Of a stretch of 64,000 bases of DNA, positions 27,034-52,200 are shown in pieces. Each line of letters opens with the position of its first letter. Within the stretch, counting starts at the first letter, position 1. The notes beneath the pieces are model-generated. The model had not been told where the DNA came from, made no database searches, and was given only the letters and a program-made list of their open reading frames with translations. Both the position numbers and the translations under genes were made by a program. Source of the DNA: Ectocarpus siliculosus (lineage: Eukaryota; Sar; Phaeophyceae; Ectocarpales; Ectocarpaceae). The DNA lies in contig FN649746.1 of the NCBI GenBank assembly GCA_000310025.1, positions 1,249,924-1,313,923 of the forward strand. Direction: 5' to 3'.

Positions 27034-30000
27034 TCACTTTTTCTTACTGCTGTCCCCCCAGGTGTCGCTAATCCCCTGCAGGATGTCCAGCACGCTCGTG
27101 CCCCCACCACCACGGGACGCCTCTGACTCCGTCTTCTTCGCACCACCACTTTTGCCGCCGCTGCTACCGCCTGACGCTCCTGGTCTGCGCGACGCGGGTA
27201 GCTGCTTCACGACTCCTGCTTTTGAACTGGCCCCACCGCTCCCGGCACCGGTCGCTGCCGCTGGCTCCACACGTCTTGCTCGTTTCCGCTGCTCAGAAGG
27301 CTGTGGGGGCGGCTGGCTGTGCTGGTTTGCCCCCCCACGGAACTGGTTCCGACCGACCCGGGCGGAGCTAGCGTCTCTTCGTGCTGTCGAGGGGGCGACA
27401 CGCCTTGCATTCACGGTGCTGGCGCTGCTGGTGCCTACAGCACGTCCACCGTTCCTGGCATCGGTCGGTGTAGACGGCGGAACCACTCCAGTGAAGCCTC
27501 CGCCGCGGTGGCTGCCGCGTCCGCCGCGATCATCACTTTCGACCGGCGTTTGGCGGCCGGTGGCGGCGGCGGCGGCTCGGGAGGAGTGGCGGGCAGGCGG
27601 AGCTTGCTTGGGCTCTACCGGGCGGCTGAGTTCGGTCACTCGGGCGCCGCCGAGGCGCGGGGCTGCTGCCACCCGCCTCCGTTCCTCATCCTTCGTCGTG
27701 CGGTGCAAACATCAAACGCGAAAGATGGCGAAAGTCGAACGGAGTCTGGTACAAGAAATTGATGGGCATTCCCGCCGATGCTGAAGGTCTCAGTAGTGTC
27801 CAACCGCAGAAGTTCCGGTGGTCCTAACCGAGAGAATAGTGACTAAGGGGGTAGCATTGCCATGGAAACATATCCGTAGCTGTCTTGTGTGATCGTTCTC
27901 AGTGAGGATTATTTCATTGTTAGAGTTCGATTTGGTGAAGCCCTTCTGCGGCGGCCCGTGGTCCCGCCCAAACTTCGTTTTTTTTTTGTCGTATTTCAGA
28001 CCATGTGCCACGGGCCGAAGCTCCCCAAACTTCTCACAAAACTCAAGAGTCCGAGCACGCTTCGGGCTCCAATGGTTTGGCTTCTTCTCCGCGAACGGCG
28101 GCTTGTCCAAACACACGAGGAAGCCTAGCGATCTCGGCAAGTCAGAGAGAGCACCACGACAAGGACAACGGGAACAAACTACGAAACGCTAGTGTGGGGA
28201 GATTCCCCCCAAAACACCAGGAGGGTCAAGCGCTGCGAGGAGTGCGGCACGAACCATCGGCACCACACAAGCCAATGCCTAGGGTACATGGCTGACCGTG
28301 AGGACATGCAACGTGGAGATTCGGAGGGCCATTCACCGGCACCATCTTGAGTGATACCCCTTCTTCTTCGTCGGCAAAGGATTAAACACTAAAGGATGCA
28401 CCGTGCTCAAAGATCAACCTAAACCCACCTCGCCGCCTCTCAACCCTTGCCGGAAGTCGTGCTCTTTGCCCGAGGCGATTCCGCCCGCGTTGGAGCTCAG
28501 AGAGCTGAGCAACCCTCCAAGAAACCCGCCGTCAGGAGTGCTAACTCTCTTCGCCGCTCCTTGGCCGTCAGCTCGTGCCCGCTTTTGCGGACGGTTCGCC
28601 GCTCCGCCGTCCGGCCGTCTGCAGGCCGATCCTCGAGGTGTTGGCTTCGCCCCTCCGGCTTCTTCATGGCGCTGCTGGCGCTTATCAACAGGTGGGCGGT
28701 CTCGTACGCTCCCTTCAAGCCCAGCGGATGGTCTAACTCCGTCACCGCCACGCGACGACGGCTTCCGTCGCTGACCGCTGCCGACGCTCTCCGGCTCGTG
28801 TCGCGGGTTCGCTCTCCTGTCGGCACAATGTTCCCCGATGTCAGCCACAGCCGGAGGGACAACCACAGCAGCAGCAGCACGGTCGTCGGGGACGTTGATG
28901 CCGCCGCTGCCGTCTCCACGGCCGTGTCCTCCCGTGCGGCTGCCTGCAGGGCGCCGCGGCGCTTGGATCTCCTTCTTGTCGCTGCCACCCGCGACTCCCG
29001 AGCCGACGGCGTCGTCTGCCTCGCCCCTTCCTCCGCGACCCGCTCGGTTCCTTCCCGTGCTTTGGCGATCGCCGCTCCGATCACGTCCCCCTTTCTTCCC
29101 GGCGGCGGTCTCTTCCAATCGCGCGCACAACGCTTCCCCATCACCGCCCCCACCGCTCCCACCGCCGGACGTCCGCGCCTTAACCGCCTCCGGCTCCAGC
29201 CGGTCGCGCGACTTGGAGTGGTCGACGAGCGCTTTCCAGGTCCCATCGGAGGACAGCCGGCCGACGTTTCCTAGGACAACAAGGGAACGCCTGGCTCGGG
29301 TGAGCGCCACGTTCATTCGCCGCTGGTCGGCAAGGAACCCTATCCCGCCGCCGCCGCCACCGCCGGATGACGGGGCGCGGACGCACGAGAAGAGAACGAC
29401 GTCGACCTCTTTTCCCTGAAAACCGTCCACCGTGCTCACCTGCGAGAATAAAAAAAAAAGGGCACCGATGAGACGTGGTTCTACGGTACAGGGCAGCGTA
29501 GACTTTTGAAGCGGGGGTTGGCGTGAGGACCCGGGCCAACCGTCTCAGGATCGAACCGAAACGCCTCGTGGCCACGTCTTGATTAGATGTTCCAAGGGTA
29601 ACCGCATCGTTTCTTTTTAACTGGGCGAAGGGTGTTCCTCTAGAATCGAGACCGGAGTTTCGGGAAAGTATTGGGGTAGATGCCAGAGAAACTCTCTAAA
29701 AGTCTCAAGTCCAAGGCTGGGTGATGACACATGGGAGATAAATTTAGGACCAAACACAAAAGGAAAAGAAGAAGAAAACGCTCCCCCGAGGTGGCTTCTT
29801 GTCACACGGGAAAGCGCGAAGCAACAACAACGCCTCGTTCTGCACCATTGCTCGTCCGGAAAAACAGCCTCAAGCTTAAGCTTCCCGCACGCGCTGCTGC
29901 TACACGGAGGACAAAGAAAAGCGTGAGTCGGGAGAGCGCTCACCTCGGCATCAACCCCGCCGTCTTCGACGCCCCCCTTTAGCCGCCGGCCGCCGCCGCC

Positions 30001-33000
30001 GCCGCCGCCGCCGCTTAGCTCCTGCTGGATGCAGTGCACCTGGCCCCGGTAGGGTGTGATGACGCCCACCCGGACCACCCCCGACTTTTCCCGGTCCTGC
30101 CCGCCGCCCGCGGCAGTGCCGTCGCCGCCGCCGCCGCCGGCTTTGACCCCTCGGCCGCTCCGCAGACCGGACGCCACGAGGCGCGCCAAGAACGCGGAAA
30201 CGAAGGACGCTTCGCGTGGGTTCTGGTACGAGCTCCCGGCGCGTCGCTCGGAGCCGGACGATACGTCCACGAGGAGGAACGGCGGGAAGCACGGCCCGAG
30301 GGGCGGGAGAGCAGTCGTCTCCGATGATGGCGATTGTGCCGGGATCGCTGCCTGGTCCCTGTTTCGGAGAGGAAAGAGAGGGGCGCAAGGTGTGCGGGGG
30401 CGGCAATGCTGGAGTTGTTAACGAATACGACTGGGCAGTGCGGGCGGGGGTGCTCATTTGTTGCCTCCGTCTTAGGTTGTTGAACCGCGACGGGGCATCC
30501 TGTTGGACGCGGTGCACCATCGTGAAGGGCGACTCAACGGAAACGCTAGGGCCTCCCGCGCGACTTCCATCACAGCGAGCGGTCTGACGGACAATGCGAA
30601 AACGGGTCTTTCCATGTTGAAATTGTCGCAGAGTGCAACGTATGGTGCACACTCATCGTACACTCATCGTACACTCATCGTGAAATGTTTGTAAGAGACG
30701 GGCGAAAGGGCGTTCGTAGGAAACACAGTGACGGCAGGGGGCCCGTCTCGCTCACCTTACGCATGGAGCGTCAGTCAGCCGGCCATTGTAAAAGCGCGCT
30801 GATGTGCCGGAATGTACCACGTAGCGAAAAGACAAACATATAGAAACGACAGAGAAAAATGACAGGGAGGGTGGGGTACGACGGGAGCAATGACGGTAGA
30901 GGTAGAAGGGCAGAGAGACAGAGAGAACAAGTGGCAGATAAAAGATTCGGGAGAGGGGAGAGGAGGAGAGAAAGGAACGAGGGGTTGATTCTAGCAAGTA
31001 TAAACCGGCGCACACACGACGGCACTAAATGAAACGAGGGTTTGCAAAGGATGGACATAGAACGTCGTGCCCAAGCCGAAACGTACGTACCTGTACAAGC
31101 CGACATCGATGCAGGTTCGACAAGAAATCAAATTGAGCTCCTCGCGATTCATCCCGGTATGTCTAGACCAAACTGGAGACACCCGTCGAACAGCACTTTC
31201 AGTACGGCGAGGGTGTGTGTGGTGGGGACTTTGCCCAAGACGGATAGAAGGGGGGGCAGAAGGGCGTTCTCGCATTTGAGTAACGCCATGGTGTAGTATG
31301 CATCCTCTTCAGTACCAAGCACCGTGCCTCTTCCTGGTAATATAGAGACGCCTCCAATACTTAAGGGCGCTCAACACGCCTTTGGATGATGGGTATAATG
31401 AGGAGGTGGATTCACGCCTGCCGAATTCTTTGATGGCCAACCCACCTGACGGAAAGGCTCGAATCTCGGGATGCATCCGGTACTGCACCGTGAGCATGTG
31501 GACGGGGTAGCCCGCGCGCTCCAATCTTTCGAAGAGGCTAACCTCTAGGTTCAAGCTGCAAAACGCCAAGATCAAGCGCAAACCATTGGGGGGGGAGGGA
31601 GAGGAGCATCATGTGATGGACTGCTCCAGAAAAAACGTCCCAAACCATAGCAGCAGCTTGAAGATACTGAGACAATACCGTGCGTTATACAATTGTAGCG
31701 ACAGCAAAAGCAACATCACCAAAAGTATAACTATATTGTATAACGACGGCACCAGCACCGCCATTACCAACACCACAACCACCAAGAAAGACAACACGAC
31801 GTTGAGCGACAAGCAGGAACCTGCACCCGCAGAAAGCGATCACTCGCACGTGCACAAACGTGTCCCCAAGACCAAGCACACCGACGAACCGCGACTACAG
31901 TGGGACGCCGTCCGACATACAACGTTTGACTGCTAAAATCTTACGGAACTACCTGTAGACGATAGGGCTGCTTATTAACCTTGTTTTTTTCGTCTTATTT
32001 TCAATCCCCATCATCCCAAACACTCGGGAATACACGATCCAGCAAAAGTTTCGGGCGTACCAGCCGGGGGTTGCACAGATAGGACTCCTCTTCTTGCCCA
32101 CAACGTTTATCGCAAGGAGGGCGGGTCAGCGACCCTTATCTGTCCAACGCCGGGTCGACACACGTCGCATCGGAGCACATCCTAAGATTCACCACGTCCA
32201 CGAAACCATGTACATCTGCGTTCCCCTTTCCTTCTATGTTTTTTTCATCACGTTAAATAATATATATTCCGTTGGAGAAAAACAAAATCTCACCGGGCCG
32301 CCCGTTGGCTGATAACCGTCGCCGGAAGCTGTCGAGGGTCTCCCACTAGAATGAGGCGTTTGCAACCTAAAGAAAGGGGTATCAGTGTACTTGGCTCCGT
32401 CGCCTGTACAACGGACAGAAGTCGGCAGGCAGCAACCACGGGCATCCGCGTTTGTGCGTCGGGGGGGGGGGTATCTCCTCGGCGGCTAGGCCGTAAGGTG
32501 ATGGCGAGATTTCGGGTGCCGTCGTTGTTTCTCTACATCTAGGGCAGTGCACGAGGAGGTGTACCATACGCTCTCTGCAGACGTGCTTGAAAGGAATGCG
32601 GGGCGCAACAGCTCCAATCTCTGCCGGTGCAAAAGTTAGTCCGCGTTATGCGCTGTCTCTTGACGGCAAGCTGACAAACGCCTTCCGTACCTGGCAAGCC
32701 TCGTCTACGATAACGGTGTCGAAGCCCTTGCCCGAAAGGCTTACCGCCTCCACCATAGGCCCCGACCCACATCCGGAGAGCGTGGCGCACACAACCTGCA
32801 AGCGCAAGGGCCGCGCGGGGTGGCTACATCGGCTCGCCGAAAGACAGCGGCCCGATGGAAACAAGCGTGAGAATGTCGCCGAAGGAAGACCCGCAAGCCC
32901 TTTGTTTCAAACGCTCGAAAAATCGTCCGCCGTGCTGCTGCCCCTATGTGGACTCTACCATCGCCAAACACAGAAACAGCTTCCTCACACGTCTTTCTAC

Positions 33001-36000
33001 GCCATCATACGCCGGTGCTGGTACTGCTACCGCTGCTGCCGGGGTTCCCCGCTCTACGGCCTTTCCAACGTTCGTTTCCGCTCTCGCCGTCCACGCGATC
33101 GACCACGCCTAACCAAGCCTTGCCTGAGCGTTGCTCACGAGCGAGCGCCTGATCTTGCCGCGCTCGACCTCGAGGCTCCTGAGGGCATCCCTGCGCCGCT
33201 GCTTGGCGACCAGAAGCTCCCCGCGAAGGCGCCGGATGTGGGTGTTAAGCTGGTGACGTCTGGGGGCGCAAGCCGCGAGGAAAACAAAACAGAACAGGAA
33301 CAACGCGGGGAGGGGGGGGGGGGGGGTGATTGCTTCGACCACGGCAAGGTGGCGAAACATCTATGAAGATGGACACTCTGGTGGCACAATATTAATATTG
33401 CGCCGGCCGAAGGGTAGGTACGTAGGGTCCGTAGTCCACTTGCGGGTGTCTAGGGGAGTTTATCCCGTAGCTTCCGCAGCGTGGCCGTCCGCAATACAAA
33501 GCGTGACAGGCGCGGGCGCACACACACACCAACAAACTAACTTCATCGCACACGCATCGTTCATCATCCACTCGTATCGCCAAGGAAGACAAAGCGCTGC
33601 AGTGATGCCGGCGTTCCGTTCGATTGGAAGGACAGGATCGATCGCTGTGATGCCAACGGGCATGAAGAGCGGTGGTTGGTGCGGCCCCTGCTTGCAGCTG
33701 ACCACAGGCTCAAGGCGAAGAAGAAGAAATGTACTTCATGCTAAAAATGGATTGAGCACACGTAAAAGCGTTGGCGCTTTGTCTAGTTTTAGATGAAACC
33801 TGACACTCGCAATGTTCCCTTGCTCTCTCCCTCTTTCTAGGCTAAAGAGATCGGTGCTAGTTGCCGAGGTGCCCGTCCTTTCGCTTCGAAAAAAATAACT
33901 CGTCAAGCCGGTCACCTATTCTCTGCGCTTCCGATTCCAGCCACACCGCCAACCTCGCCGACACCACCGCTCCTCACGGCACGTCCGGCCTCGTCGATAC
34001 GCGCGTGCGTTTCTCTGATCTTGGTCTCGGCAGTTCTCGCCTCGGCGCTCTTGGCGTGGAGCTTCACTCTGGTCGGGGCAAGAACACGGTGCGGACACAC
34101 CGACAAGACCAGATGTTAGCGGGTTGTGCTTACGCACGCGTCATTCTACTCAGGTCCAGGAACGGTGCAGGTGCAGACACGCAAACATATCAGATATTAG
34201 CGTGTGTGTGCTGCACGCGTCACTCTGCTCAGCACAAGGCCGGTGGAGACAAATAGACCAGATGTTAGCGTGCGGGTGCATGCACACGTTCGGCGGGGTG
34301 CGGATGGCATGAGGGAGCGCCATCGAGGGGAACTTTACTCCGCGCGCGGATGGTCGAATGAGTCATCTTCTGGTTTGGGTTGGGCAACGAAACAGGCAGG
34401 CAGCAGGCCAGCAAGGTCCATATCATATTTGAGACAACAGGGGGGGGAACTGCGTCTGAGACGTATGACGACTTCTCTCTTCCCCTCTGGCATATTAGAT
34501 CGACCGTGAGCCTCTCACCCGCTTCTGTCATGCTTGTGCCCAGAGTCGTCGAAGTCACAACCACTAACGACGACGACACAAACAACAACAACAACAACAA
34601 CAATAACAATTACAACAACAACAACAACAACAACTACAACAACAACAACAACTACTACAATTACAACAAACACCAACTTACAACAACGATAACTACAACA
34701 ACAACAACAACAACGACAACAGCCGGTCACCTCTCTTCTACCATGAACTCAAGAGACACGGCCTTGACCCGATCCGCCGCGTCTTCCGAGGGCTTTCCCA
34801 GGCGAACCACCCTCGGCGCAACAGCATTCCCGCGCTGGTCCCAAACTCCGCCCGATTCCAGAGCCAACCGTTGGGCGAGCTCGTCTACAGCACCGTTGCT
34901 AGGGGCGCACACGAGTATCTGCGCAGTCCGGAGTTGGGTCGGGGGTCAAGAAACAGGGCGCAGCGGTGCCCATTTCAACAACGAACACACGCATCAATAA
35001 CAACAACAGCAGCAACCGTGGGAGCAGGAGAAACGCCTACAACGATAAATACAGCATAATGCGCTTAGAGAGGAATGGGTCTTATGCGGAACATCCGGGA
35101 AGTCCCGGCGGGGGGGCGGTCGGAAGCGACACAGTTGACGTCGGATGTACAACAAGGTTTGAGTGGGCCCTCAATTGCCCTGTTCCTACACACGACAAGC
35201 AAGTCGAGGTCTGCACGGAAACCGCACATGCCAAGAGCCTGCCACAACCAGAACGCCGAGCACGCAACAGGAACGCCGCCGCTCGTCAGCGATTCCTCAC
35301 TCACCCGTTGGTGCGTCTTCGCCGCAACCCACCTACCCGCCACCCCGGGTCGCTTCTGGCGCGCCCCAGGCGCCAGCGTGGTGCCCATGCCTCGAGCGCC
35401 CGCTCCGCCACCCCCGCCACCGCTACCACAATCTTTCTCCTCGCGGCGGGCAAGGATGGCGCTCACGACCCCGAGAACGGTGCGGGTCTTACCGGTGCCC
35501 GGGGGTCCCTGCAACAGCACCACACCCCCCTTGGACCCTCCTCCCCGCGCTCCGCCTTCCCTTCGATTCGCCGTCGCCGCCGCGTGGTTGACCGGAGCGC
35601 GCCTCTCGGCCAGCACCGCCGCTTCAGGAGTCGCCCGTCCATCGTTATCTCTGGCGGCTGCCGCGAGATCCTCTTGGGCTTCGCGCGCGCTCGCCGCGGC
35701 CGCCCATATTGCCCTCAGCTGAGAAACGTTGAACTCTTGCGAAAGACGGTCCCAAAGAGCTGCGGGTACCAGGCTGGGCCGTTTGGGCGTCTCCTGCCGC
35801 TTCTTCTGTTGCTTCTCCGGAGGGCAGGTGTCCTTCGGAGAAACGTCGGAACTGGATGAACCAGCGTCAGGTATGGTTGCTGGGGATTTGTGTCCCGAGT
35901 CCGATATGCCCTGCTGCTCGTCGTTCTTCTCCTCCTGCTCTTTCTCTCCCACTAGCCTCGGCTTTGTCGAGGCCGCCGGCCGGACGCGTTCAACCATTTG

Positions 36001-36256
36001 TTCAGCCCCAACTTTAGCCTTGGCTCCACCTTCACTGTCACCACCACCACTACCGCGCTCCTCGCCTTGGGATCTCTTTGTCGCCGCCTTGGCATTAGCG
36101 GTCGCGCCGCCGCCCACGTCAACCACCCCTCTCCACGCCCGGAGAAGACGAGCGGCAACGTTGCGGACGTCAGGGCCCCACACCTCCGACTTGGAGAGGC
36201 GCTTGAGGCGCTTGGCGGTACCACGGCCGTGAGAGGTAAGGAGTTCCGGGGCAACC
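27034..36256 (-). CDS. Helicase core: TND second half, motifs I-VI, C-terminal tail
   Basis: Exon 36256-35344 opens with VAPELLTSHGRGTAKRLKRL and DVRNVAARLLRAWRGVV, the TND second half, then a charged linker. The RecA1 part follows: EFNVSQLRAI (Q motif), LLQGPPGTGKTRTV (Walker A). Later exons give ILVCAPSNGAVDEL (Ia), a stalk-like helix pair (LNTHIRRLRGELL), VVCATLSG, TVIVDEACQ (II), LILVGDPRQLPATVISQ (III), MLTVQYRMHPEIRAFPSARF (IV), FYNGRLTDAP, VGVITPYRGQVHCIQQEL (V) and STVDGFQGKEVDVVLFSCVR with MNVALTRARRSLVVLGN (VI). All catalytic residues expected of an active ATPase are present. Motif II is DEAC rather than the commoner DEAA/DEAG; DEACQ also occurs in known Sen1 proteins. Exons of 49, 43 and 73 bases encode parts of the core. 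The last two exons give a roughly 450-residue disordered tail rich in Gly, Arg and Ala, ending in KKK. Confidence 0.9.
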
Positions 36257-39200
36257 CTGTTGGCGGGGTGGGGTGGGGGGGGGGGGGGGGGGGCGTACTC
36301 ATTTGTTGCTTGCCTTAGTCATTTGACCATTGACCACGCGTCCCTTTCGAGACGGAGCACCGTTCCTACGTCTACTAGAGACACCACCAACATTGTGGGA
36401 GCTCTTTACGTTTCTGCCACAAACTACATAAAAAAGTTCTTGCACATCTTATCCCCGTCCTCTAGGGCCTCTTGTGCCCACCATCTATCCCCAATTATCG
36501 CGATCGTTTTTTCCCTGTTGTCTAATTTACCAAACTTGTCCATGTCACACTCTCTCTGTCTCATTTCCTCCTCGAGATCCTCTCTTTCCTTCCTGTACAA
36601 CTCACACTCCCCAACTATGTGGGGTCTACTCTCCTCCGATTTGCCACATGGACATGTGTGTCTATCCTCCTCTTCCTCTCTCCTACGGCTGGTATACCTC
36701 GTCCTCCGTTCTGGCAAGTCCAGATCGCCTACTCGAAATTGTAAGTTCAGCTTTTTCGCGTAGTCCATGGGGCCGTCCAAGTACGTCTTCATCCCTATCC
36801 CTTCTTTCAACTTCCCGTATATCTCCAAGTGGTCTTCGCTTCGTACCTTCTTCCGAAGGGTTGCCTCCTCCCTACTTTCTAGCATCTGTGTCCAACGTCT
36901 CCTCCTCGTCTCCCATCTCCTTCCAAACCTTCTCTACCACCTTGTCCCATCTGATTCCCTTCTTCCCTGGAGTCGCTTTTCCCCAACGGGGGGGGGGGGT
37001 GTACTCATAGTCGTGCATGCCGCAGTCGTTAGACCATTGACCTCGCATCCCTACAAAGCCGGGACGTAGCACGCCGGGTTCTCACCGGACCAGGCTCTCA
37101 CATCACCAAGCGCTAAGCGCCGTGAGGTATTTGGCGAGTCGCATGAAGGGTGAGCTGCATCCTGCTAAGGGTGTTCGGCATCTTGTGCTTACTTCCTTGC
37201 GTACGGATGACAGCTACGTATGACTTAATTTATTTTCTGGTGCTTTCACTTCCAGAGACTGTTGTAAGCACTGTGTAACTGCTTCGAGGATGCTTGACCA
37301 TTTTAACACAACGTGGTGCGATCATCCCCCTTGCGCGGAGTGAGGGTTCTCCACCCCGCACAACATGATCTACTCGACCACCATTATGGTTACCGCCCAA
37401 AAAAAAAAACGAGGTAAAAAAAAAAACCGGTAACCTGGTTGCCGAGTTCACGAAGTGAATTGGCTTGTTTTACAACGTCGTTGCCAAGCGACGAAAACCC
37501 AACCCCGATGGTAAACACCGGGGGGGGCGTACTCTTATGCTTTGCATGCCTTAGCGGTTAGACCATTGACCACGCGTCCTCGAGAGGACGGAGCATTGTT
37601 CCCACAGGACCGATCACCGATGGTCAATCGTTCCTTCCTACTTTGCCAAAGGTGGCTCAAAAATGTCTTTCCTAGTCTGTCTATCCTACCGATGTCACTT
37701 CCCGCTTTTTCAAACCACTTTCTACTCCCCAGTACCGCTACCGTCCTCTCCTCTCTATTCCATGCCTCAAACATCTCCCTGTACGTCCCTTGTATTCTTC
37801 CCAGCTCGGTCATGTACACTTACCTCTCCTTTTCGTACCACGGACATTCCGCGACTACATGAACACTGTCTTCGCATTCGAAGCCGCAATCGCATTTGAA
37901 CTTGTCGTCTTCGTCGTCTACCGTCCTATGTCTTCGTCGACGTTCGCGAAGGCCTATGTCCCCGGTCCTGAATTTGACCTTAAGATTTGTCCCTGCATCC
38001 ATTGGTCCATGTAGGTAATCCTTGAACCCTATTCCTTCTTTCAACATTCCGTACACTTCTAGACCCTCCTTATCCTTGGTTTCTTTCCTTAGATTCTGTG
38101 GGGGGGGTGGGGGGGGGTACTAATGTTTTGCAGACCTATCTGTTAGACTTCTGACCACGCGTCTCGAGAGTTGTGGGGGGTACTCATAGCCGTGCATGCG
38201 CGTAGTCGTTGGACCATTGACGTTGGCGGGGGGTCAAACTTTGAAAGTGAGTCACCGATCGTCGGGGGGTCGTCGGAAAGGAGGACACCACCCCTACCGA
38301 GGTTTCGGCATCAAGGGGCACTGGGGTTGAAATGATCCAACCACATGGTGAAAAACAACCGGCGGTACCCGTAGAAAACAAGAAAATCACGTTCTTTTCA
38401 TGGGTTAAGGCGAACCCAACCCACCGTCATGACTGAAATCATCCAACCACATGGTAAAAAGCGTAAAAATCAACCAACACTACCGCTAGAACACAAGCGA
38501 ATTACGTTCTGTTTCATGAAACGACGATGCTAAACCCACCGCATCTGCGAAGAACGGGCGACGAGGCCCTTCGTCAAGAACCACGCCTGTGCCACGGTTG
38601 CAGAGTTGCCACTCGTTTATCAATCATGCTGTGCACCTGATTCTGCGCTCTAAATAAACCAAACTCGCGGCGCGGGCTTGCCCCACAACCTAAGGTCGAG
38701 GGACGCTCCTCGCACCCACCTGAAGCTGGCAAGGCACCCCAGCGATCGCATCAGCGACTCCGCCGGCCCCGCTATGTCAGCGGCCAAACCCGCGGCGATA
38801 GCCGGACTCCCGCCTCCGGCACCGGACTCCCCGAGAAGGGCAGAGTCTTCCACTGACGATAGTCGCTTGCAGGCATCCGCAAACGAGGCTTCGTCTACCA
38901 GGTAGGGAGGCGCCAATTTCGTCGCCCAGAGGTTGTCGTTGCTGGTGGTGGAGTTTCCGGGCGCCCTTTGAGGGGTTTCTTGCAGGGGCTGCAGACTTGG
39001 TTCCGACGTCGCCTGCGCCACCATCAACAAGCGTGATTCTGATTCCATGCAGCGTCCGAAGGTTCAGCACGGAACCATCACTATTATACCATCATCAACA
39101 ACCAACACGCATGGTTCTCATTCCATGCAGCGTCCATAGGTTCAGCAGGGAACAACCACCACTGCCACCATCAACAACCAACACGCGTGGTGCTCATTCC

Positions 39201-42200
39201 ACGCAACGTCCAAAGGTTAATGTGGACTAAACCTTCTAGGGAGAACAAACTAGGATAATTCTACCCCGGCATAATTACAGGGGATGGCGGACTGAGCCTT
39301 CTAGGGAGAAAAAAAACAGGGTCGTTCATCCTCCGGCACAGCAGTCTTGTTGTGAAAAAGTACCTGCAAGATGTGGTGCAACAGGGCCGCACGAGGCGAT
39401 GCCTCCAGCGCCACAAACTCTCGGGTCGACGTGCTCAGCCCCTCCAGCCGCGTTACGCGCACCTTTGAAGACGAACGAGTGCAACGCAAAAAAAATAGGT
39501 TGGGCGCACACGTGTGATACCCGTCACCAGGCACAAAGGGCAAAACATGGTACAAGAGTAGGAGATAAGGGGCTCCGACATTGCTTGGACGGTGAGAGAC
39601 GTCAGCCATGGTCGAGATGTCTCGACTTGGTTAGAGAATGACCCATCTGTTTCCCTGAGAGAAAAAAATTCTAGATGCCATGGGCGGAGGAGGAGATATT
39701 CCATCGCGCGAAGGATAGAGTCAGTTGGGATGCGCTTTGCTCGTATAGGCTCTTGAAGCTGGCGAGGCCTATGGCATTTTTGTCGGTCTTTCGAGTTCAG
39801 AAGCAACGGACGGCGTGCTTCTTATCGTGTCGGGAGTATTTTCGACCACTGTCACAACATGTTGAACACGCCTCGTTCCAAGCTGGCGGTCGGACCAACA
39901 CGAGATTTGGCGAACACGCTTGAGAGATGCCCAACGAGAACAGCACAAACCTGTGAGCCCAGCTCTCGGAACGCCCGCAGTACAGCGCTCGCGGCTTCTT
40001 CTTCCCCTGAGGATCGCATCGTGTGGGTTGGCACAGTCGTTCGGGTTGGAACGGCCATGTACGGATTTTGCAACAGACGGTGACTCCAGTCCATACAAGT
40101 CACAGAAGAATCTGAAGTGTTGGTTTGTTCTAGTTACCACACTAATAACGATCGATTTCGTTATAACTGATTAAGGCAGTTGGGAGAGGGAGGGAGGAGG
40201 CGTGTATGTCCCATAGACATATGGTAGCTTGAGTGTTCCACGCTGCAGGGTGCACAGAAAACACCAAATGCAAGGTACGCTACGGCAGAGAAAGGGCAAG
40301 TGAGTGGACGGGTTGGTCGGTAACCAGCGAATAGGTCACAACCCGGAGTACACCATGATAGTACTGCTGGCTGAGTCAAACCCAACACAGCTTGCGCGCC
40401 AGTCCCCTACAGTCCCCTGCAGCAGCGGTCACAGGGGTTGTGGTTGTTGGAATCCCCTCCCCCGGCCTCCAACATCTTGATCAGTGGAAACCCAACGCGC
40501 TTCGTGCTGAGATTTCGTAGAGATGCGACGGTGCTCTATCTGAAGGCGACGGGGTAAGCATGCATGTGAGTACTCCCTCCCCCCTCCCCCCCCGCCCTCT
40601 ATGCGACTCGCCTAAAACCTCACGGCGCTTCGCGCTTGGTGATGTGCTCGCCTGGTTCAGTGAAAACCCGGCGTGCTCCGTCCCGGCTTTGTAGGGATGC
40701 GAGATCAATGGTCTAACGACTACGGTATGCACGGCCATGACTACACCCCCCTTGCCCTCCCCTCCTCCCCTTACACGCACCTTGCCCTTGTCCCCGACTC
40801 TCAGCCGTGGCTTTCTTCGGGATAATGGCCCCTGCGCCTCTTTCGATCGTGCTCCGATTGCGACCACGGTCTCCGGGCGCGGTAGATCGGAACAGCACTT
40901 TCGCCTGGGACACGTGTTGAGACAGAGGCCACGCGACGTGATAGGAGGGTGGGCGTCTTAGACAAGGCAATCATTCGCAGCATCGCCAGACAGCAAGACT
41001 GACGGATGGATAGCCAGCCAGTAACAGATATTGGGTTCGGAGCTGATTTTGGGATATTTATCACCAAAACCTTGAGAACTCGGAGAGACGAAACAAAGTA
41101 CAGTCAGGGACCCTCCATAGAGCGGGTACGTGCCAAGCGCTGTCACCCGCACTACACCGGGCACTCGCACCATATAACCCGAACTGTAGAGGGGCTCCGA
41201 CTGTGCCTGTGAGGAACGCAGACAAACGGACAGAAACACGCCTTGTAGGCGCTTATTCGGGACATTCACAAGGAAAATCTCGAGGCCTCGGGAGATACAC
41301 TAGCAGCCTCGACTAACGCGTGTACACCGCTGCCGTGTCAAGCAACAGGGTACCCACCCGAACCGACGACCTCCCGCTCCCCGGCATCCCGGCCGGCCCG
41401 CGGGCTGCTCCGCGGGGCTCCTTTTCGAAGAGTCCGAGGCAAGCCGTCGTGGTTGCTGCTGAGCCGCCGTCTCCACTCACGTGACCGCCGCCGACCGCCC
41501 CGTCCGACGGTTTCGCGAGGGACAGCAGGAGGACGTCATCATGAGCGAACCTGTAGCGCAATTGAGATGCGACGCGGCGCAATGTTGTTTAGCATGCTGT
41601 TACTGTTGTGGTTGTGGTTGTTGTTGGTGGTGGTGGTGGACGCACTAACGGTGGTATCCCATCCGCCCATTAAACCACCCAGACTCCGAAACTTGGCGAT
41701 CACAACCTACTTTCTGAATCATCGTACAGCTACTCTCACGGAACTGTGCCACCACAAACTACGTATTTTTCTCATCGTGTCGCTACTTGGTTGCGCCGTA
41801 CGCCAACCAAACTCACCGATGTGAACTACCCCCGCCGTCGTCCGCGACCATGGTAATGTGGCCGAACCCCCCCTTGCCGCCCTCAACCAAGGATGCTACG
41901 CGCAGCGTCATTGCCTCCGGGGGGCCGCCCCGCCCCCCACCACGACCACCGCTGCCACCACCGTCGAGGGCGGCAACCAAAGTGGCGAAAATCTCGTCGA
42001 GCAGCAGGCCCCGAAAGACCTCGAGGTACTGCTCCACGCTCTGAAAGCGGGTCGGAACCTGACATTTGGGAAACCAGCACTGCCGCGGGTTGATAATTTG
42101 GTCGCGGGAGTCGTCGCAATCACGGACGGCATGGTCGGTGTGGTGCGGCCGAAATTGAACTCATGGGATACGAATCAACCGAAAAGGAAATCTAAAATAG

Positions 42201-45200
42201 GAGCGCGAGTCCCCTCCCCCCCAGCGGGTTCCCAATCGGCCGGCATCGGCAACAACAACTATAAGGCAGAGCCGACGTCGGTTTAGCAACCTTTTTGGCC
42301 GGTAGCACTGCCATGTGCACCAAGTCGAGTTATTTGGCTAACAGACATATCTGCCCGCCAACGCAAACCATATGGTAGTCCTGAGACAGCAGCAGTGCGG
42401 CTACGCCCAACGAACCTTCGACAGCCACAGGCTGCTCGACGACGAGCGCCCAACTTCGTGCCCCCTCTTGGGGCCCTGAAACCTCCCCCCTGACCGAGCC
42501 GACTTCGTCGACGCGGCGAAAAGCTCCGGGACGGTCCACGACGATAGGACAAGCTTGTGGAGCTCCGTCGCGCTAGCCTCGGCCAGCGACGCGTAGTCGA
42601 GCGTGGCCGCCCCCGCCACGGTCGTGGCCAACGATCCGTTCCCGCCGTCGGGAGAGTCGCCGCGGCGCGCTGCTGCTTGCGCTGCTGTAGCGAAGGCAGC
42701 CCTGGCCTCTTTGGAGGTGGTCTGTGCTGCCGCATTTCTTGGTGATCTCGCCTGCTCTTGCTGCTGCTGGAGCGAACGGCTCTGAGATGCGGCTGGCGCG
42801 GACGCTACTACTTCCGTTGTCTCCCCCATCTGCCTGCGCTGCATCTCGCGCCACCGTTCTACTACCGAGCCTCGCGGACGCGCCGCCGCCGCCACCGCCG
42901 CGGCCGCCGCCACCTTTGCGGTGTTTGCTTTCGCCTCCGAAGCTCTTGCCGCGGCGGCTTCGGCAGCAGTGACGTACGTCTTTCTACCGCGAGCGCCGCT
43001 GCTACTGCCGACCTCGTCGTCGTCGTTGGCCGTCGAGTTGGAGACAGCCCGCGAAGCCGTCTTCTCCGGTCTAACGCCGAGGCTCCCCCCTTCGGTGGAC
43101 GCTGCAGTGCTCCGACCACGAGAGTCGCGGAAGCCGCCGCCGCCGCCGCCTCCGCCGCCTGCGGTAGAGCCGCCGCCTTGCCGGGCTTGGGATGAATCGT
43201 TCCCGCCAGCCTTCGGGTAGTGACTGCCGCGTCTTAACCCGGGTGTTCTCGCGGTCCGTTCTGGCGCTGCTGCGGGAGAGCTGTAAGTGATCTGAGCTAA
43301 CGCTGACTCCGACAATGGCCGCCCCGCGGATTCCGACGACGGGGTGGCTGAGTTACCGACGCCGAGTCTATCCTCCCACGGTGTCCGCGACCAGCCGCTG
43401 GCAGCAGAAGACCCCCCGTTTCCTCGGCGTGCGGCGGAGAGCGCGAAAGGATTCCTTGGTGCTGCTGGGGAATGCGGGTCAACCCTCGATCCTGCCGCCC
43501 CTCCCGTTGCTGCCGGCGGACTGCAGGGGTCGACGGCGGTACCCTTGGCAGTAGCCGCAACGGCGGCCGATTTGAGCGCCGCCAACAGATCAGCCTCTGG
43601 CTCCTCCGATGACAGCGCCCACGCGGACCTTCCCTCGCCCTCCACAGCGCGCAACTTGTCTCCCACAAGCCTAACCGTCTTTCGCGGGCTTACCCCGACG
43701 CTTGGGTCGTCGTCTCCGCGGGCCCCCCTCTCGTCGCCGCCGCCTGCGGCTGAACCGCACGACGAGGCGTGAAGGAACGGAAGGAGAGAGCGCTGGACAA
43801 AGATTGCCGCCGCCTCTCGGGCGACCCGGGGCAGCCAGGCCGCCGAGACCCACGAGAGCAAGGGTTGCAGCCACAGAGAGCGGGAGCGATAGAAACCGTC
43901 CGTCAGGCGGGGGCGCCGACGCTGAGCCGCCGGGCCGGTCAAGAGGGGCCACAGGCTACAAGCACATAGCGGCGGTGGGATGCATGGAGCAGGGGGAAGC
44001 AGGTTGGCATGAGTGACTTCGTGGAAGACATACAAAACCCATCGGTTGAAGCCCTTGCGAGGACAAGCAGGTTGCGCGGAGGGCTCGATACAAGTGGTAT
44101 GGAACCCTGACGGGAAACATGAAGGTGACCGCCCCGTGTTTCGTGGAGACATCAGCCTGGTAACAAGGCTACCACTTTTGCCTATGAGGAGTAGCGTCAG
44201 CCGGCGGGGGGCGGCTGCCGGCACTCCACCATCGATAGGTGGGCTCGAGCACACATGGTTGTTCGTGCAAACTCCAACGCACCGACCCCCAAGAAACGGT
44301 AGCACTAACGCGTCACATAGCCTACCTTTCAAGCGATCCAAACAGCGCCCGGAACGCTTCTTCAAGCCTCGTCGCATGTTGCTCTCTGAGCGCGGGCAGA
44401 GCCTCGGGGATCACCTGTCACAATCGTACCCGCAACCCTTAGAACCCTTCAGAATTCCCAGGTCCACAAGGCGCGACGCTTCTCGTCAACCTACCAACAC
44501 CTTAACCTCGAAACCGGGTTGGAGGTACCTACGCTGCTGTGGTACCGCTTCTCTTACGGGGTAGAGGGAATCTGCGACAGCAATCTGCGGGATGGTACTG
44601 AGGAACCTGTGCTCAGGCTTCGATCAAGCTGTCCAGTTGGTTGATGATTTAATATGGTAGCAACGATCTGCTCTTGGTTTCCGTTGGTTTGCGGTCATCT
44701 TGTGACCCCTCTCTCGTAAGCTCCGAACGAGGCACCTTGCCGACCAACTACCTCATCACCCTCCGGACACGACCGTAAACGTCCTCCTCTGCAGTGTGAG
44801 CACTACAAACGGTGGTTTGTGGGTTGCGGTCGGCACTGTTGTCCCGTGAAGATGGCCTGCACCTTCCTCTGCACGGGTTAGGGGGGACCGGCCAAGCGTG
44901 AACAGCAGCGGAGATGGTCGAGGCCGCTACAGCAGTCCCGCAAGACAATTGGAACTCGCCCGGCAAGCCACCAAGCAGAATCAACAGTCAACAGGGCAGA
45001 GCATCGACGTACTACCCCACCTGCAGGAAAATGAACTCCCATACCGCCTCCAAAACTTCCCACAGTTCGTCTTCTTCCCCCTCTCCCTCGCCCTGCCGCT
45101 CCTCCTCTTCCTCATCCCCGTCTGCCGCTGAGGCCTTGGGCAATAGCACCGCGCATCCAAGTACGCCCACGGCCTGAAACAGGGGGCTCCATGACTTGAG

Positions 45201-48200
45201 GGAGAGGTGAGGACCCGCAGCGGCCATCGCTCCTAGGGCCTGGGCGCAGGTGTGATAAGAGCCAAGTTTTGCGATTCTCGGGTGAGTACATTGCATGTGG
45301 TGAATGGAAGAGGAGCGCCGTCATCATTATCGTGCTTGCCGTGGTCGCTAGACCTTGCAGCCCGGAAACGGCGCGCGACAGGCTGCACCAAACCAGGCGA
45401 GCGTACCAAAACGCGTTACAAGGACTTGAGGAGTTCAGCGAATCGCACAACGGCGACTTGCACGGTGGAAAGCGTCGAGAAACATTCGGCTAGCAGGTTT
45501 GCAAACCATCAGTACACAAAACATTCCGAGGACAACAAGACCCCAAAAAGGCGCCAAGAACGGGGTGGTGCGCGCGGGGTAACGTCAGAACGAACAATTC
45601 CACCCGAATTGATCGCTACCTCCCGCGTCGGCCTCGTAACGCGCAGCGCCTTACCGACGACGCAAGACTTTCGAGTGCCACGCATGTTTTTTGTTGCACA
45701 CGCGTCTGCTTAAACCTTTTCCCTTGCTGCCTAAGCAAAACCTCCGCTGGTAGCCCACTGCAACTTGCTTAGCACTGTTCTGAATCAAAGAAATTTCCGG
45801 GTCCAGCACAGCGGTGAGAAAAACAAGTTTGCAAACACACACACGCGCCTCACGGGGTCCCAGGTCATGGTCCTGAGAAGCATTTTCTGTTTGTAACCGC
45901 ACTGAGACTGGCGTCTTTTCATTGGTCAGCCGATTGCACGGTCAACGCCAATAACGAAGACACACATACACACACAGGATACAGCAACACTCGGCCCTCA
46001 GAGGCACGGCACAGGCGAACGCCAACTGTTTTTGCAGACCTGCGGGACGGCCTGGAAGCAGGCCCGAGCGCAGTCCGGAGGGAATCGGCCGAGCAACGGC
46101 CGCAGGTCCCCCCGCCTCCCGCCGTCGGAGAAAACGGAGCGAGACACAAGCTCCTCGAGGGCCGCACGTGCCGTCGGTACGGCGGCGAGGAGCGCCTGCT
46201 CAAGGGCGGGGCGGCGGGAGTCGCAGGGAGGAGTCGGCGGACAGCGAGCATACACGGTCAAGGGAGCACAACAGTGACGCCAGTTCGAGGTGCGTGTGCA
46301 TACAAGCATGCGTGTTCTTGGCCTTCTTCATTCGGAGGAATGACATTAACAGGTCATGCACGGAATTTAGCGGCGTTGCCAGGGCGCCGTAAATTAGTTT
46401 CAACGTGGAGCAGCACCGCAGTTGCTGCATGTGTGAGCAAGCCTCAAGAGTGAAACAACAGCTAGAACTGGGCAGCGTCTGCAGGCACCCAGAGAGAACA
46501 AAAGACGATCAACATTTGAGCAGCCTGGTCACCGCGAATATCGTGTTGTCACGAAAACACTCCGAACACACAGTTGTTGTGGTGCATATGTAGCTTGCCT
46601 GAAGAATAGAAGGAGCTACCTGCGGCAGAAGAGCTGGTGACACCGATGCCTGCACGGCAGGTACGGTAAGCCATAGGGAAGGGGGGATGGTAACATCACA
46701 GGCGCACCACGTAAGGCAGTGTATGCCCGAAAATGTGCGAACGCAATGAAAGAAGTTTCCCTACCGCAAGATTTGAGGCATACTGTTGTGGTATTGATTA
46801 CACAGACAAAGCGGCCAAAGTCACACACGGCGAAACATACCGGAAACATCCTCATGACCCTCTACTCAACTTGCTACCCATCTCCTCGACGAGAAAAAGG
46901 GCAACCCCGCGAGCCCCAAACGAACGTGGGATCCTGTGTGGCACATCAGTTGATCAAACAAGCACAGCGGCCTCACGGCTGAGGAGATATAACCTAGACA
47001 GGGGTTTACCCTATCCACACAACATCGCGCGGGCGAAAACCACACCAAGATAGCACACGTACAACCCATGCTAGTACCTGCAATGCAGCCGAAGTCCAAC
47101 CCCGACAGTACAACCAACACACCCACACGAAACGACAACAAAGCAAAACGAACACAAATACGTACCCCACGGTTTTTCACGATCTCTGTCAGGCCTTGGA
47201 CGTACGGCACGAACAGCCTCACGAACTGCGACATCATTCCGGAGTGTAGCGCCGCCAGCACGCGCGAGGCGGCGGGCCCGCCTCTTCCCTCCGCGGCCCG
47301 GATGGCGGAGTGTCCTTTCGGAACACAACGTTCGAAGAAGAAGAAGAAGAAGAAGAAGAAGAAGAAGAAGAAGAAGAAGAAGAAGACAAGAAGGAAAAAA
47401 AAGGACGAGAGAAGGAAACACGAGAGAACAAACAGACAAGACACCCGTCAGACAATGCGGAGAACGACGACAAAGGGGCAGAGCACTACGACATAAGAGA
47501 AGTCGAGGAGACGTGGAATAGTCGACGCGTCGGGCCGAAAGCTTCTCAACGCTCTGCCGAAAACACACGCGGATGCCGTTGCGTTTTAGACGAGCAGAAG
47601 ACTCGAGCAGCCCGATTTTTTTGTAGAGAAAAACTCAGCTTCTTGACTCCTACGTGAACCAAACCCAAACGTCCCGGTTCCAACGAACGCGACAAATGGG
47701 GAGATATTCCTCCACAAATTGCCCTAGGCCCAAACAACTGTGTTCGGGCAAAAGTCGCGTTCCGTCATACCGCACGGTAGGAGCGACAGCCACCCGTGCG
47801 CCTCAAACACCGCGGCGTGCACGCGGACGGGTAGGTCCATCAAAGGCAGCTCCAGACAAATCCGCTCCAGGAGCGGGCCACAGAGCGGTACCACGCACTC
47901 CTCGTCCTCCATCCTGCCGCTGCTCTGGGACGCAGAGCCACTACCGGAGGATGATGCCGACGGCGGCAGCCGCAAGGCGGAAAGCGCCGCTCTCCACGCC
48001 GCCCCCCCGTGCTCCCGGAGCACGAGCTGCACGACTCTCGCCGCTCGATCAACCACCGCCACGGCGGTGCTCTCGCCGGAGGCCCTTCCGCTGCGGTCGC
48101 CCGCGATGTCTGCGAGCCGTGGGCCCCACGACGGCACGCTGCGAACAGGCCACGATGGGTAGCACCAAGCGCCGCTCGTAGCAGCAGCAGCAGCAGCAGC

Positions 48201-49148
48201 GCTCGCCGCGGCAGCGTTCCAGGGCCAGCTCTCGGGTTCAAGCAGGTCGGAATCATCATCGCTCTCGCCGCCACCTGCAGAGCCGTTGTAGCACGTCTCG
48301 AGGACACCGAGCAGGGCTTTCGCGAGCGCCATTTGCCGCCTACCGTGTGCGCCGCGATTGTTCTCTGGTGCCACCGCCGAGAGCGAAGCGATTTCACGCG
48401 ACAGGAAGCTTAGGACCGCGTCGGCCACGGGCAACACGCCCGCTGCCGCTGCTGCATCATCGATATGTCTCGCTGCCACTCCGGGGTGATCTGTTCCCCC
48501 CCCAATCCCCTGGTTTCCGTACACCGCGGTGCCCCAGCCTGTAGCACCGGATGGCCTATCGACAGCAGCCGCGGAGGACACCAGCAAAGGCAGCATCTCG
48601 AAAACCTTCTTCTGGATAGCCTCGTTGGGCAGCATTCTTCTCCCCGTTCCCCTGAAATCGGCGGTGTCCGCGCCGTCCCCGTAGCTAGTCTGACGCTCGA
48701 GGGCTTCGAGCACCTCTGACGGCTGCCGAGAGCTGTACTCCCACATCTCGGCGCCCAGGAGGCGCAGAAGAGCGGAGAGGCAGCCGCACACCTGACAGAC
48801 AGAAAACGCGCGCGTTTTTCGGGAACGCAGGGTTGGCCCACAAGAACAAACCACGCCGTGACGATTGGCGGAAAAGGTGCACATAAATCTGGCAAGGGGA
48901 AGCTCTCTTTCGTCGGCAGGGACGAAACGGTAGCCGGTGGTCGGTCAGCATAGCGCCCATCGGGAGACCGAACGGAAGACTGTCCGAAGTAACCGCGGTT
49001 CAATCGTTCCTGCCGCCGGCCAAAGGACAACGCGACCGGTAACGCCGCCAACACCATCGGTAACAGCTTCCAAGGAGGAACAACCTAGACAACCCCCACC
49101 TCTCTTTCCTTCTCTGTCTCTGTCTCTGTCTCTGTCTCTGTCTCTGTC

Positions 49149-49201
<53 letters not shown>

Positions 49202-52200
49202 CTCTCTCTGTCTCTGTCTCTCCGTCTCTCTCTCTCTCCTCCTCTCTCTGTCTCTCTCGCAAGACCAAGTTAAGAGTCCCGACAAAAAAAAATGAATCCC
49301 ACACATGTCGAAGTTGGTTCGCGCTGGCTGTGCGGAATGGCCGTCGTCGATACGCAGCAGCACCCAACACAGAACCTCACGCGAAACGAAAGCCATGCAT
49401 GACGACAGTGTCCGCCATCCCCCCAGCTGCTGATAACAAATTACGCAAACAGACGCGGGCCGATACATCTGCCACCGAGGAGGACACGCATAGACTGTAC
49501 AGAGATTTGTGTTTTGGAATTAGCATTCAGAGTATTGTGCTTTTTTCCAGTTTTACCCGCTGGCACTGACGTATTTTCATTGGCCAACCTCTAGCCCAGT
49601 CTTGCTACGTAGTAGAGAAACACACACGTCTCCACCGCGGCCCGCCAGTCGGGGAGGGGCGCAGACTAGAACAGACTGAGTCTCGTTCATTTGCCGGTTA
49701 GCGCGGTCGATGCAACTGAAAGAAACACGCACACGATTACGTACTAAATATGTGTGCTTCGAACCTGCAGGTACAGGGAAACACCCCGGGGTCCGGGACC
49801 GTCGTCGAACTTCTGCAGAGCCAGGTCCACCAACGTTGGAAACCCATACGCCAAGAGCGGCGCCGCACTTGGCTCCAAGAGCTGAGGAACACCACACAGG
49901 GGGACAAGGGACATGGGAAGAGCCAACGAGTACGTTGAGAAAGGTGCTGGCAATAAGAGGGCGTGAGAGGAAACGGGCAGGGTCAAGCAAGGCCCTCGGA
50001 ACATGAAAGTTACACTACGTCTGTCGACTTGTACTGCTGCCTTCACGCGTTTCCGGTCGACCGATTCAAACGTTCCCCGAAGAAAAAAGTGGTAACGGTT
50101 TTGTGCCCATGGTAATTCCGTGGAAGTCGTTTGCGAAGTCGTCCACAGAGTGCGTGTGAATCACGCTGTGTCCCACGATTCGAGACACAATCATACAGAT
50201 CCCATTTCGATACGGTGAAGCACACAGTGGTGTTCGAGGTTTTAAACCTGCAACGCCACGTGCAGTCCGCTCCAATGCAACCGCTCCCCGTCGCTGTCCG
50301 GATCAGACCCGGATGCCGTCGGGTGGGCGCCGCCGCTGCTCAGGCCTCGTTCGAGTACGGGAACCCAGCGGTCGATGACGGGGCTGAACGTCCCGTGTAG
50401 GCAGGGGGAGCGGAAACCCGTCGAGGTGGCGATAGTTGAGCGACAGACAAAAGGAGAGGGGGGGAGGTGAGGACCATGATAAAACAGATCGATTTCAATG
50501 TTTTTTTACTGTTAATGATAGTCTAGAAAAGTGCAAGTCGAAAGTAATTTGCTGTGTGAAATTCCCACTGAGAAAACGTGTACGGCCCGCAGCAACTATA
50601 TAATACGACGGGCTGAAAGAATATCAGTCGGATACGTGCGGTTTGAGATGTACCCCGTATCGCACACTCGTGCAGAAGAACCGCCTTCTCGCGGGAATCA
50701 CACGGTACGGTACGACGGTACGGTACGGCACGGTACTTCTCTCCAAGGCGGCAGCAAACACAGAAAATACACTGCTCGACGTTGCACGGGGCTCCGGACT
50801 GGCGCATAACCCCCCAACCCACCCGGCCGTACCGTGATGCGTGGCCAGCCGTTTGGCAGCATGAGGTTTTCGTGAACAACTATCTCCCACTGCATCTGTA
50901 CTACAACATCGCAAGAGCAGGAACGGTGCTTCGACATACAACGGGTCCGAGGCCATTTGACTGACGACATCACTTGATCCTATCCCCTCCCCCCCACAAA
51001 GCCATCTTTGGCAAAAGTAGGGTAAGTAGGAAGGAACGATTGGTCATGCGTGATCGGTCCTGTTATAACAATGCTCCGCCCTCTCGACGGCGCGCGGTCA
51101 ACGCTCTGCCAACGAAGACATGCAAAACACGAGTACCCCCCCCCCCCAAAAAAAAAAAGACTCCGCGTTGCCCCATAGTGAGCACTGATGCCACGCGCTT
51201 ACCTCAGCACCTCCACGTACTCCTTCGCGCGGATTCCTCCGGCCCTCCTCGCCATCGACTGCGCCCAGGCTCTCGTCGACGCCTCCCTGTGCACCAGTAG
51301 GGTCAGCACGCCAGGCCAGTGCTGATTCCATTCTTCCCCTGAGAAGACCCCCTCGCCGGAGCTGGTAACCTGAGCTCTCGAATGGGGGCGGGCGGCGAGG
51401 AAACGGCGAGCGTTCAGTCCGCGGCGAAACACAAACGGCGGGGGAGACGATGGTCCAAGGGAATGGGACGGTGAAACGTCAGCAATACAACACCGGAGAG
51501 TGGTGCAATATCGAGTAGAGACTGCCTATCAATGACGATAAATCAAACAAACCCAAGTTCGCGAAGAACGGTTGAGGTTTTCATCAAAGCATAAACACAC
51601 AGGGATGATTTTGGTGGAGACTTTATCCCAAATATTCAAGGCGTCCTTCTGCGTGGCCGTTGTCAACCCCCACAAGAGCCCAAATGGACGAGAAGGAGCA
51701 GTCAAGCCCGTTTTCGTCTCGAGAAGAATGAGGTTTCTCTTCCCGTCGTTGTCTCAAGGGTTCCCCCTCGCCTCCACCTCTGCGCCACCGCATGCTACCG
51801 AAGCGACACTGCCGCTTAGGAGGTTCCCGGGCTATTCCGTGCACAAAACAACTGCCAGCAACCTCCCAACAGCAGTACCTGCGAAAGGGCCGCCAAGAAG
51901 GCTCCTTCTATCCCACCGTCCTCCAGCAGCTGCGAGTAGGACAACACCTCCCAGAACGCCAGGGTGCCATCCACCCCGAGAGGGAACGACGAAGAAGCAG
52001 TGGCAGCAGCCCCCGTGGTTTTGCAGGCTTCGCCGTCGACTCCTGCTAACCCTTGTCCGGTCGCTACCGTCCCGGACCCCGCCCCGTCCGATCGCGCCGG
52101 TATTCCGGCTGGCGCTTTCCCGGTAGAGCGGAAGGAGCGTTGGAGCCGGTCTCGGTCATGTTCGAGGACCGCCGCTTCAAGCCTCTGGGTCTCGGCGGGC

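Follow-up and report, generated by a model that had tools for sequence, protein, structure and literature searches.

Does a brown alga possess a Sen1-type helicase with a built-in docking domain for elongation factors? This question is raised by a gene on the minus strand of a stretch of 64,000 nucleotides of the Ectocarpus siliculosus genome (assembly GCA_000310025.1, contig FN649746.1, positions 1,249,924 to 1,313,923 of the forward strand), which is called the window below and whose numbering is used for the gene. A first-pass annotation had proposed that a TFIIS N-terminal domain (TND) lies inside this helicase and would connect it directly to the elongation machinery. How Sen1 or senataxin locates its polymerases outside yeast is, to our knowledge, unclear. 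The analysis verified that the helicase contains a large insertion, and it indicates that a TND-like segment within the insertion is probably a TND.

The gene was predicted on the minus strand, and its exons were chosen by eye for frame-keeping, so that the openness of the model is partly by construction. Twelve exons (39462-28429) were joined, with GT-AG at all junctions, to a single open frame of 1187 residues without any stop. In addition, a putative last exon with its 3' limit at 27034 is open up to a stop, and six exons upstream (44326-49881) form a separate open frame of 583 residues, which serves as a partial model of the N-terminus. Pfam analysis of the 1187-residue protein revealed AAA_11 (3.2e-57) and AAA_12 (1.3e-52), and the relatives in the PDB were, ordered by bits, yeast Sen1 (207.9), 8ftm (199.8), UPF1 (162.1), SMUBP-2 (119.2), and DNA2 (93.2). 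The entry 8ftm has the title 5'-3' RNA helicase-like protein, and we take it to be Chaetomium Sen1. Motifs I, Ia, II, III, IV, V, and VI were all found in the SF1B core. Because of the SF1B core, these motifs, and the fact that Sen1 scored above UPF1, the protein is, judged by its sequence, a Sen1-type SF1B helicase. It has the AAA_11/AAA_12 core, motifs I to VI, and the stalk helix sequence in common with Sen1/senataxin (yeast PDB 5mzn and 8ram; PDB 8ftm), but its stalk helix and P-loop region are separated by about 300 residues more, which include the TND-like segment. A possible further difference is that Pfam analysis of the partial N-terminal model of 583 residues yielded no family and hence no SEN1_N (PF12726), presumably the helical N-terminal region.

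The size of the insertion can be read from the comparison with 8ftm, in which the stretch from the stalk to the P-loop comprises residues 217-247 (about 30), whereas it comprises residues 40-373 (about 333) in the algal protein. This large insertion is real and, as sequence, certain. In the model, the stalk motif occupies residues 11-22, the TND-like segment residues 117-176, the Q-motif residues 306-314, and motif I residues 381-388. The first-pass annotation had thus rightly placed a large insertion ahead of the Q-motif, but the stretch that it had named as the barrel motif, TSTREFVALEAS, is presumably not the barrel motif itself but the stalk helix that follows the 1B barrel. This stretch aligns to 8ftm before the P-loop with only 0.8 bits, and the register rests on the motif. 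A second insert, which is rich in Ala and Gly and about 66 residues long, was observed between the Q-motif and motif I (35509-35706, minus strand; model residues 315-380).

The TND-like segment is composed of the end of one exon (T1) and the start of the following exon (T2). Alignments to TNDs revealed that it has the Leu/Trp core and the G..K..L pattern. A profile was built from eight TNDs, which were also used for single comparisons, namely two TND exons of the same genome (L001 and L002) as well as DST1, IWS1, MED26, ELOA, TCEA1, and PPP1R10. The joined segment scored 8.9 bits against profile positions 8-60, and the match crosses the exon junction. None of 5000 shuffles of the full segment and none of 5000 shuffles of the T2 part reached this score. 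The decoys were 3863 six-frame segments from 24 records. Ten of them had 8.9 bits or more, and all ten derived from genuine TND exons, three in number, or from duplicates of these (two of the three exons belonged to the training set of the profile), while the best other decoy had 8.0 bits. The hhalign values were 42.6% for the joined segment, 19.6% for T2 alone, at most 2.5% for 200 shuffles, and 95% for a real IWS1 exon. With T1 added, the hhalign score increased from 19.1 to 23.6, a value that was equalled by 4 of 200 shuffles of the T1 part and by none of 200 full shuffles. In the single comparisons, none of 400 shuffles did as well as the segment against L001, TCEA1, and PPP1R10.

Pfam analysis also detected the TND family (PF08711), the gathering cut-off of which is 20.6 bits. 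The family appeared with six of nine queries containing T2, and in five of these six it was the top family. A trim of 80 residues yielded 13.1 bits (E 0.085), and five further trims yielded 11.8-14.0 bits (E 0.22-0.046). Two reversed sequences had no match. Ten other 60-residue pieces of the same protein were used as controls; nine remained blank and one gave the true AAA_11 (E 0.032), with the HMMER filters concealing most matches above an E of about 0.1. Because these ten controls revealed nothing but the true AAA_11, a PF08711 match with an E of about 0.05 is not commonplace at random for this protein.

The closest of the eight TNDs was that of PPP1R10/PNUTS, with a Smith-Waterman score of 51, in comparison to 26 to 43 for the others; the TNDs of TFIIS, Elongin A, MED26, and IWS1 have the helix pattern and the Leu/Trp core in common with the segment. 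The score of 51 was reached by none of 20000 shuffles, and the six of the 3863 decoys at or above it were two other TND exons and this exon, each found twice. The PNUTS TND (PDB 6vti) and the algal segment have TAKxxKxLSKS and an AxxLxxxW core in common, and 13 of 32 residues are identical in the T2 piece. PMC12278311 gives L108, K109, A114, K115, K118, K122, A133, V137, W140, M141, and I144 as conserved residues of PNUTS that bind the TND-interacting motifs (TIMs). The algal residues at these eleven places are L, T, A, K, K, K, A, L, W, R, and V, i.e., seven are identical, two are conservative, and two are changed (T for K109 and R for M141). L108 and K109 were mapped by eye, since the scripted alignment begins at T113 and covers nine of the eleven residues, and the algal segment has two extra residues after the equivalent of L108. 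According to the same paper, PNUTS is, unlike the algal protein, a scaffold for PP1, and four additional helices pack onto its TND.

A number of results weigh against a TND, and part of them speak for another explanation that is regarded as less likely, namely that the insertion has no TND ancestry but is a lineage-specific linker, helical and rich in Ala and Arg, in which the likeness in the last two helices arose by chance. The best PF08711 score was 14.0 bits, and it was below the cut-off every time. The match was confined to about 33 residues, all of them in T2, and T1 added nothing to the score. The profile search of the translated junction, by which the first-pass annotation had wanted its domain to be recognized, thus ended sub-threshold and in T2 only. 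With a 130-residue trim SseC outranked PF08711, and the family was absent from the results for queries of 394 and 97 residues and for the whole protein of 1187 residues (E limit 0.1). A search of the PDB with the sequence placed a TFIIS domain (E 0.82) 13th of 23 rows, below unrelated proteins including collagen IV and HPPK, and with a shorter query no TFIIS was found. The collagen IV rows (whole-sequence E 2.6e-6 and 2e-5) were rejected as chance, as they are sums of repeats whose single stretches have an E of at least 16, and the HPPK rows were rejected likewise. A five-TND profile gave 5.2 bits, and 19 of 20000 shuffles were at or above this value, with only 13700 of the 20000 reported at all. 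T2 in the unspliced frame had 6.3 bits, under three unrelated decoys. Shuffles did as well as the segment in 41 of 400 cases against L002, in 20 against DST1, in 6 against IWS1, in 2 against MED26, and in 1 against ELOA, and the best of the eight single scores was equalled by 4 of 4000 shuffles. The scripted comparison with PNUTS revealed identity at 6 of 9 contact residues and at 7 of 23 others, a difference that is not significant (p 0.07). Two contiguous unspliced fragments were submitted to AF2 as single sequences, which predicted helices 9-22 and 28-48 for T2 (pLDDT 65, pTM 0.36) and helices 14-33 and 43-69 for T1 (pLDDT 56, pTM 0.27). In order and length these helices would fit a TND, but at such low confidence the prediction carries no weight. 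For the five-helix fold that the first-pass annotation had expected there are two separate helical fragments of low confidence, and the one that was compared with the PDB by Foldseek (T2) had no match. No orthologue was found in a viral contig collection, where the TND part of the query was covered by none of 10 loci, or in a genome contig collection (no match), both collections being poorly suited to algal genes. The chance explanation is also in accord with the presence of other low-complexity inserts in the protein, e.g., the Ala/Gly-rich one. It is opposed by the blank result for nine of the ten control pieces (the tenth giving its true family), by the complete absence of equally good shuffles with the eight-TND profile (5000) and with PPP1R10 (20000), and by the large conservation of the PNUTS contact residues. 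As the PF08711 cut-off was not reached, the segment is classed as TND-like and not as an established TND. Of the pattern that had been claimed for it, the helical TND-like segment with its Leu/Trp core is supported, and the family membership (14.0 of 20.6 bits) is not established. On balance, TND identity is considered probable.

A further alternative concerns the exon junction. It is held to be very improbable that T2 is a TND-like half of which T1 is not the partner, another acceptor or donor being used, so that the domain would be truncated or the segment skipped in the mRNA. The first-pass annotation was correct in its coordinates, phase, and peptide, i.e., exon 38988-38720 and exon 36256-35344 joined at phase 2 encode the quoted peptide without a stop; the acceptor of T1 may lie 24 bases earlier, at 39012. 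Both the donor (CTTCAG|gtgggt) and the acceptor (ccaacag|GGTTGC) are canonical, and by the phases of the model, which fit throughout, an omission of T1 would break the frame of 1187 residues. In the frame required, the codon log-odds were +0.44 per codon in the 3' half of T1 and +0.35 at the start of T2, whereas they were negative in every frame of two flanking intron pieces. Over its full length T1 was ambiguous, with +0.17 in this frame versus +0.18 in another, which favors the alternative. The same is true for the restriction of the Pfam match to T2, for the repeat-filled intron with a poly(C) end immediately before the acceptor, and for the rank of the T1 donor, which was third of 144 in-frame donors (42000-36300) by the TND profile (8.9 bits versus 10.1 and 9.3). 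Furthermore, 99 of 5000 shuffles of the T1 part reached the 8.9 bits, which also tells against the joined domain. The gain in hhalign score upon addition of T1 speaks for the partnership, with the few T1-part shuffles mentioned above equalling it. A share of T1 in the putative TND is plausible, on weaker tests than that of T2, because the Pfam match lies wholly inside T2.

The own-genome searches covered 492 contigs (189 Mb). A search with the PF08711 family yielded three TND exons above the cut-off, and the exon studied here was not among them. Another clear TND is encoded at L002, positions 1501-1659 (32.9 bits). No paralogue of the TND segment was found, since the three matches were two own exons and one stretch with E 0.72 and two stops, and none of the barrel piece, for which the five matches were two own exons and three at E 0.54 to 2.4. 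The features of the gene are summarized in Table 1. The intron 36257-38719 contains four minus-strand tails of one repeat, which end in poly(C) near 38221, 37570, 37041, and 36334; the last poly(C) is immediately 5' of the T2 splice acceptor. Remnants of a zinc-knuckle-like open reading frame are also present in this intron, and for one piece of 80 residues the genome contains close copies in a number of at least 150 (150 of 1053 candidates were scored). EsV-1-7 repeats, a family characteristic of brown algae, are likewise present at least 150 times in the genome (150 of 880 candidates were scored). At the C-terminus of the helicase (27034-27690), the short hydrophobic motif VLDILQGISDTW follows a long low-complexity tail and is possibly a linear motif.

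Table 1. Predicted features of the helicase gene, in coordinates of the window
Feature	Position	Strand	Basis
Sen1-type helicase gene, C-terminal part (barrel end to stop)	27034..39462	-	Frame, Pfam AAA_11 and AAA_12, best PDB relative yeast Sen1
N-terminal exons of the helicase gene	44326-49881	-	Model parts separated by 39463-44325
Exon B1: end of 1B barrel and presumed stalk helix (TSTREFVALEAS)	39364..39462	-	Weak alignment to PDB 8ftm residues 180-217
Exon T1: first half of insertion; end is putative second TND helix (AESLMRSLGCLASF)	38720..39012	-	Frame, coding bias, profile, predicted fold
Intron dividing the putative TND	36257..38719	-	Four poly(C)-ended repeat tails and pieces of an abundant retroelement-like open reading frame
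Start of T2: VAPELLTSHGRGTAKRLKRLSKSEVWGPDVRNVAARLLRAWRGVV, putative TND core	36121..36256	-	PF08711 11.8-14.0 bits, cut-off 20.6
Charged low-complexity linker, TND to Q-motif	35734..36120	-	Model
Q-motif (FNVSQLRAI), Ala/Gly-rich insert, motif I GPPGTGKT	35344..35733	-	Model, motif positions
Nine exons: motifs Ia to VI and low-complexity tail	28429..34918	-	Model, Pfam
Likely last coding exon, TSVLDILQGISDTWGDSSKKK then stop	27034..27690	-	Open frame

What could a TND in a Sen1-type helicase bind? According to PMC12278311, the ligands of the PNUTS TND include TIMs of IWS1, SPT6, PAF1, LEO1, and MYC, which are bound at micromolar affinity, and according to PMC13175633 the N-terminal region of IWS1 contains TIMs. 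One TND exon of the Ectocarpus genome is of the IWS1 type, its best PDB matches being IWS1 (E 1.2e-5). Upstream of this exon, on the reverse strand of locus L024 from about base 5461, an acidic open frame contains MDDVFGSDSS and DADVFGSDSEEE, i.e., two VFGSDS motifs. The frame also has a lysine-rich stretch. We take FG motifs of the VFGSDS type to be TIM-like; a PDB search with the stretch around one of them gave no match. From its position, the frame is probably the N-terminus of the IWS1 of this genome, and it is a possible partner of the TND-like segment. The proposed dock onto elongation factors is helped by this observation because the TIM-like motifs lie upstream of the IWS1 exon of the same genome.

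The reading that is favored, with moderate confidence for its two parts jointly, is that the gene is the Sen1 orthologue of the brown alga with intact motifs and that a tethered PNUTS-like TND would dock it onto elongation factors. Long flexible linkers would connect the TND to the stalk helix on one side and to the first RecA domain on the other. The groove of the TND, basic and hydrophobic (Ala-Lys, Lys, Lys, Ala, and Trp as in PNUTS), would bind short TIMs in the disordered acidic tails of elongation factors, e.g., IWS1, SPT6, or PAF1, and this docking would hold the helicase at the elongating RNA polymerase II. There, Sen1 might remove nascent RNA, resolve R-loops, or terminate transcription. 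More tentatively, and with somewhat less than even confidence, brown algae may have hard-wired a PNUTS-type TIM reader into Sen1, so that the TIMs of IWS1, SPT6, or PAF1 could recruit R-loop removal or termination without an adaptor such as Nrd1 or PNUTS. Among the top-ranked open-access literature matches, none described a TND in Sen1 or senataxin, which is weak evidence of novelty.

If the favored reading is true, two separately known modules are joined in one protein, from which a simple binding test follows, and the list of TND proteins gains a motor enzyme. For one lineage, the built-in TND would then be a direct answer to the question of how Sen1 finds its polymerases.

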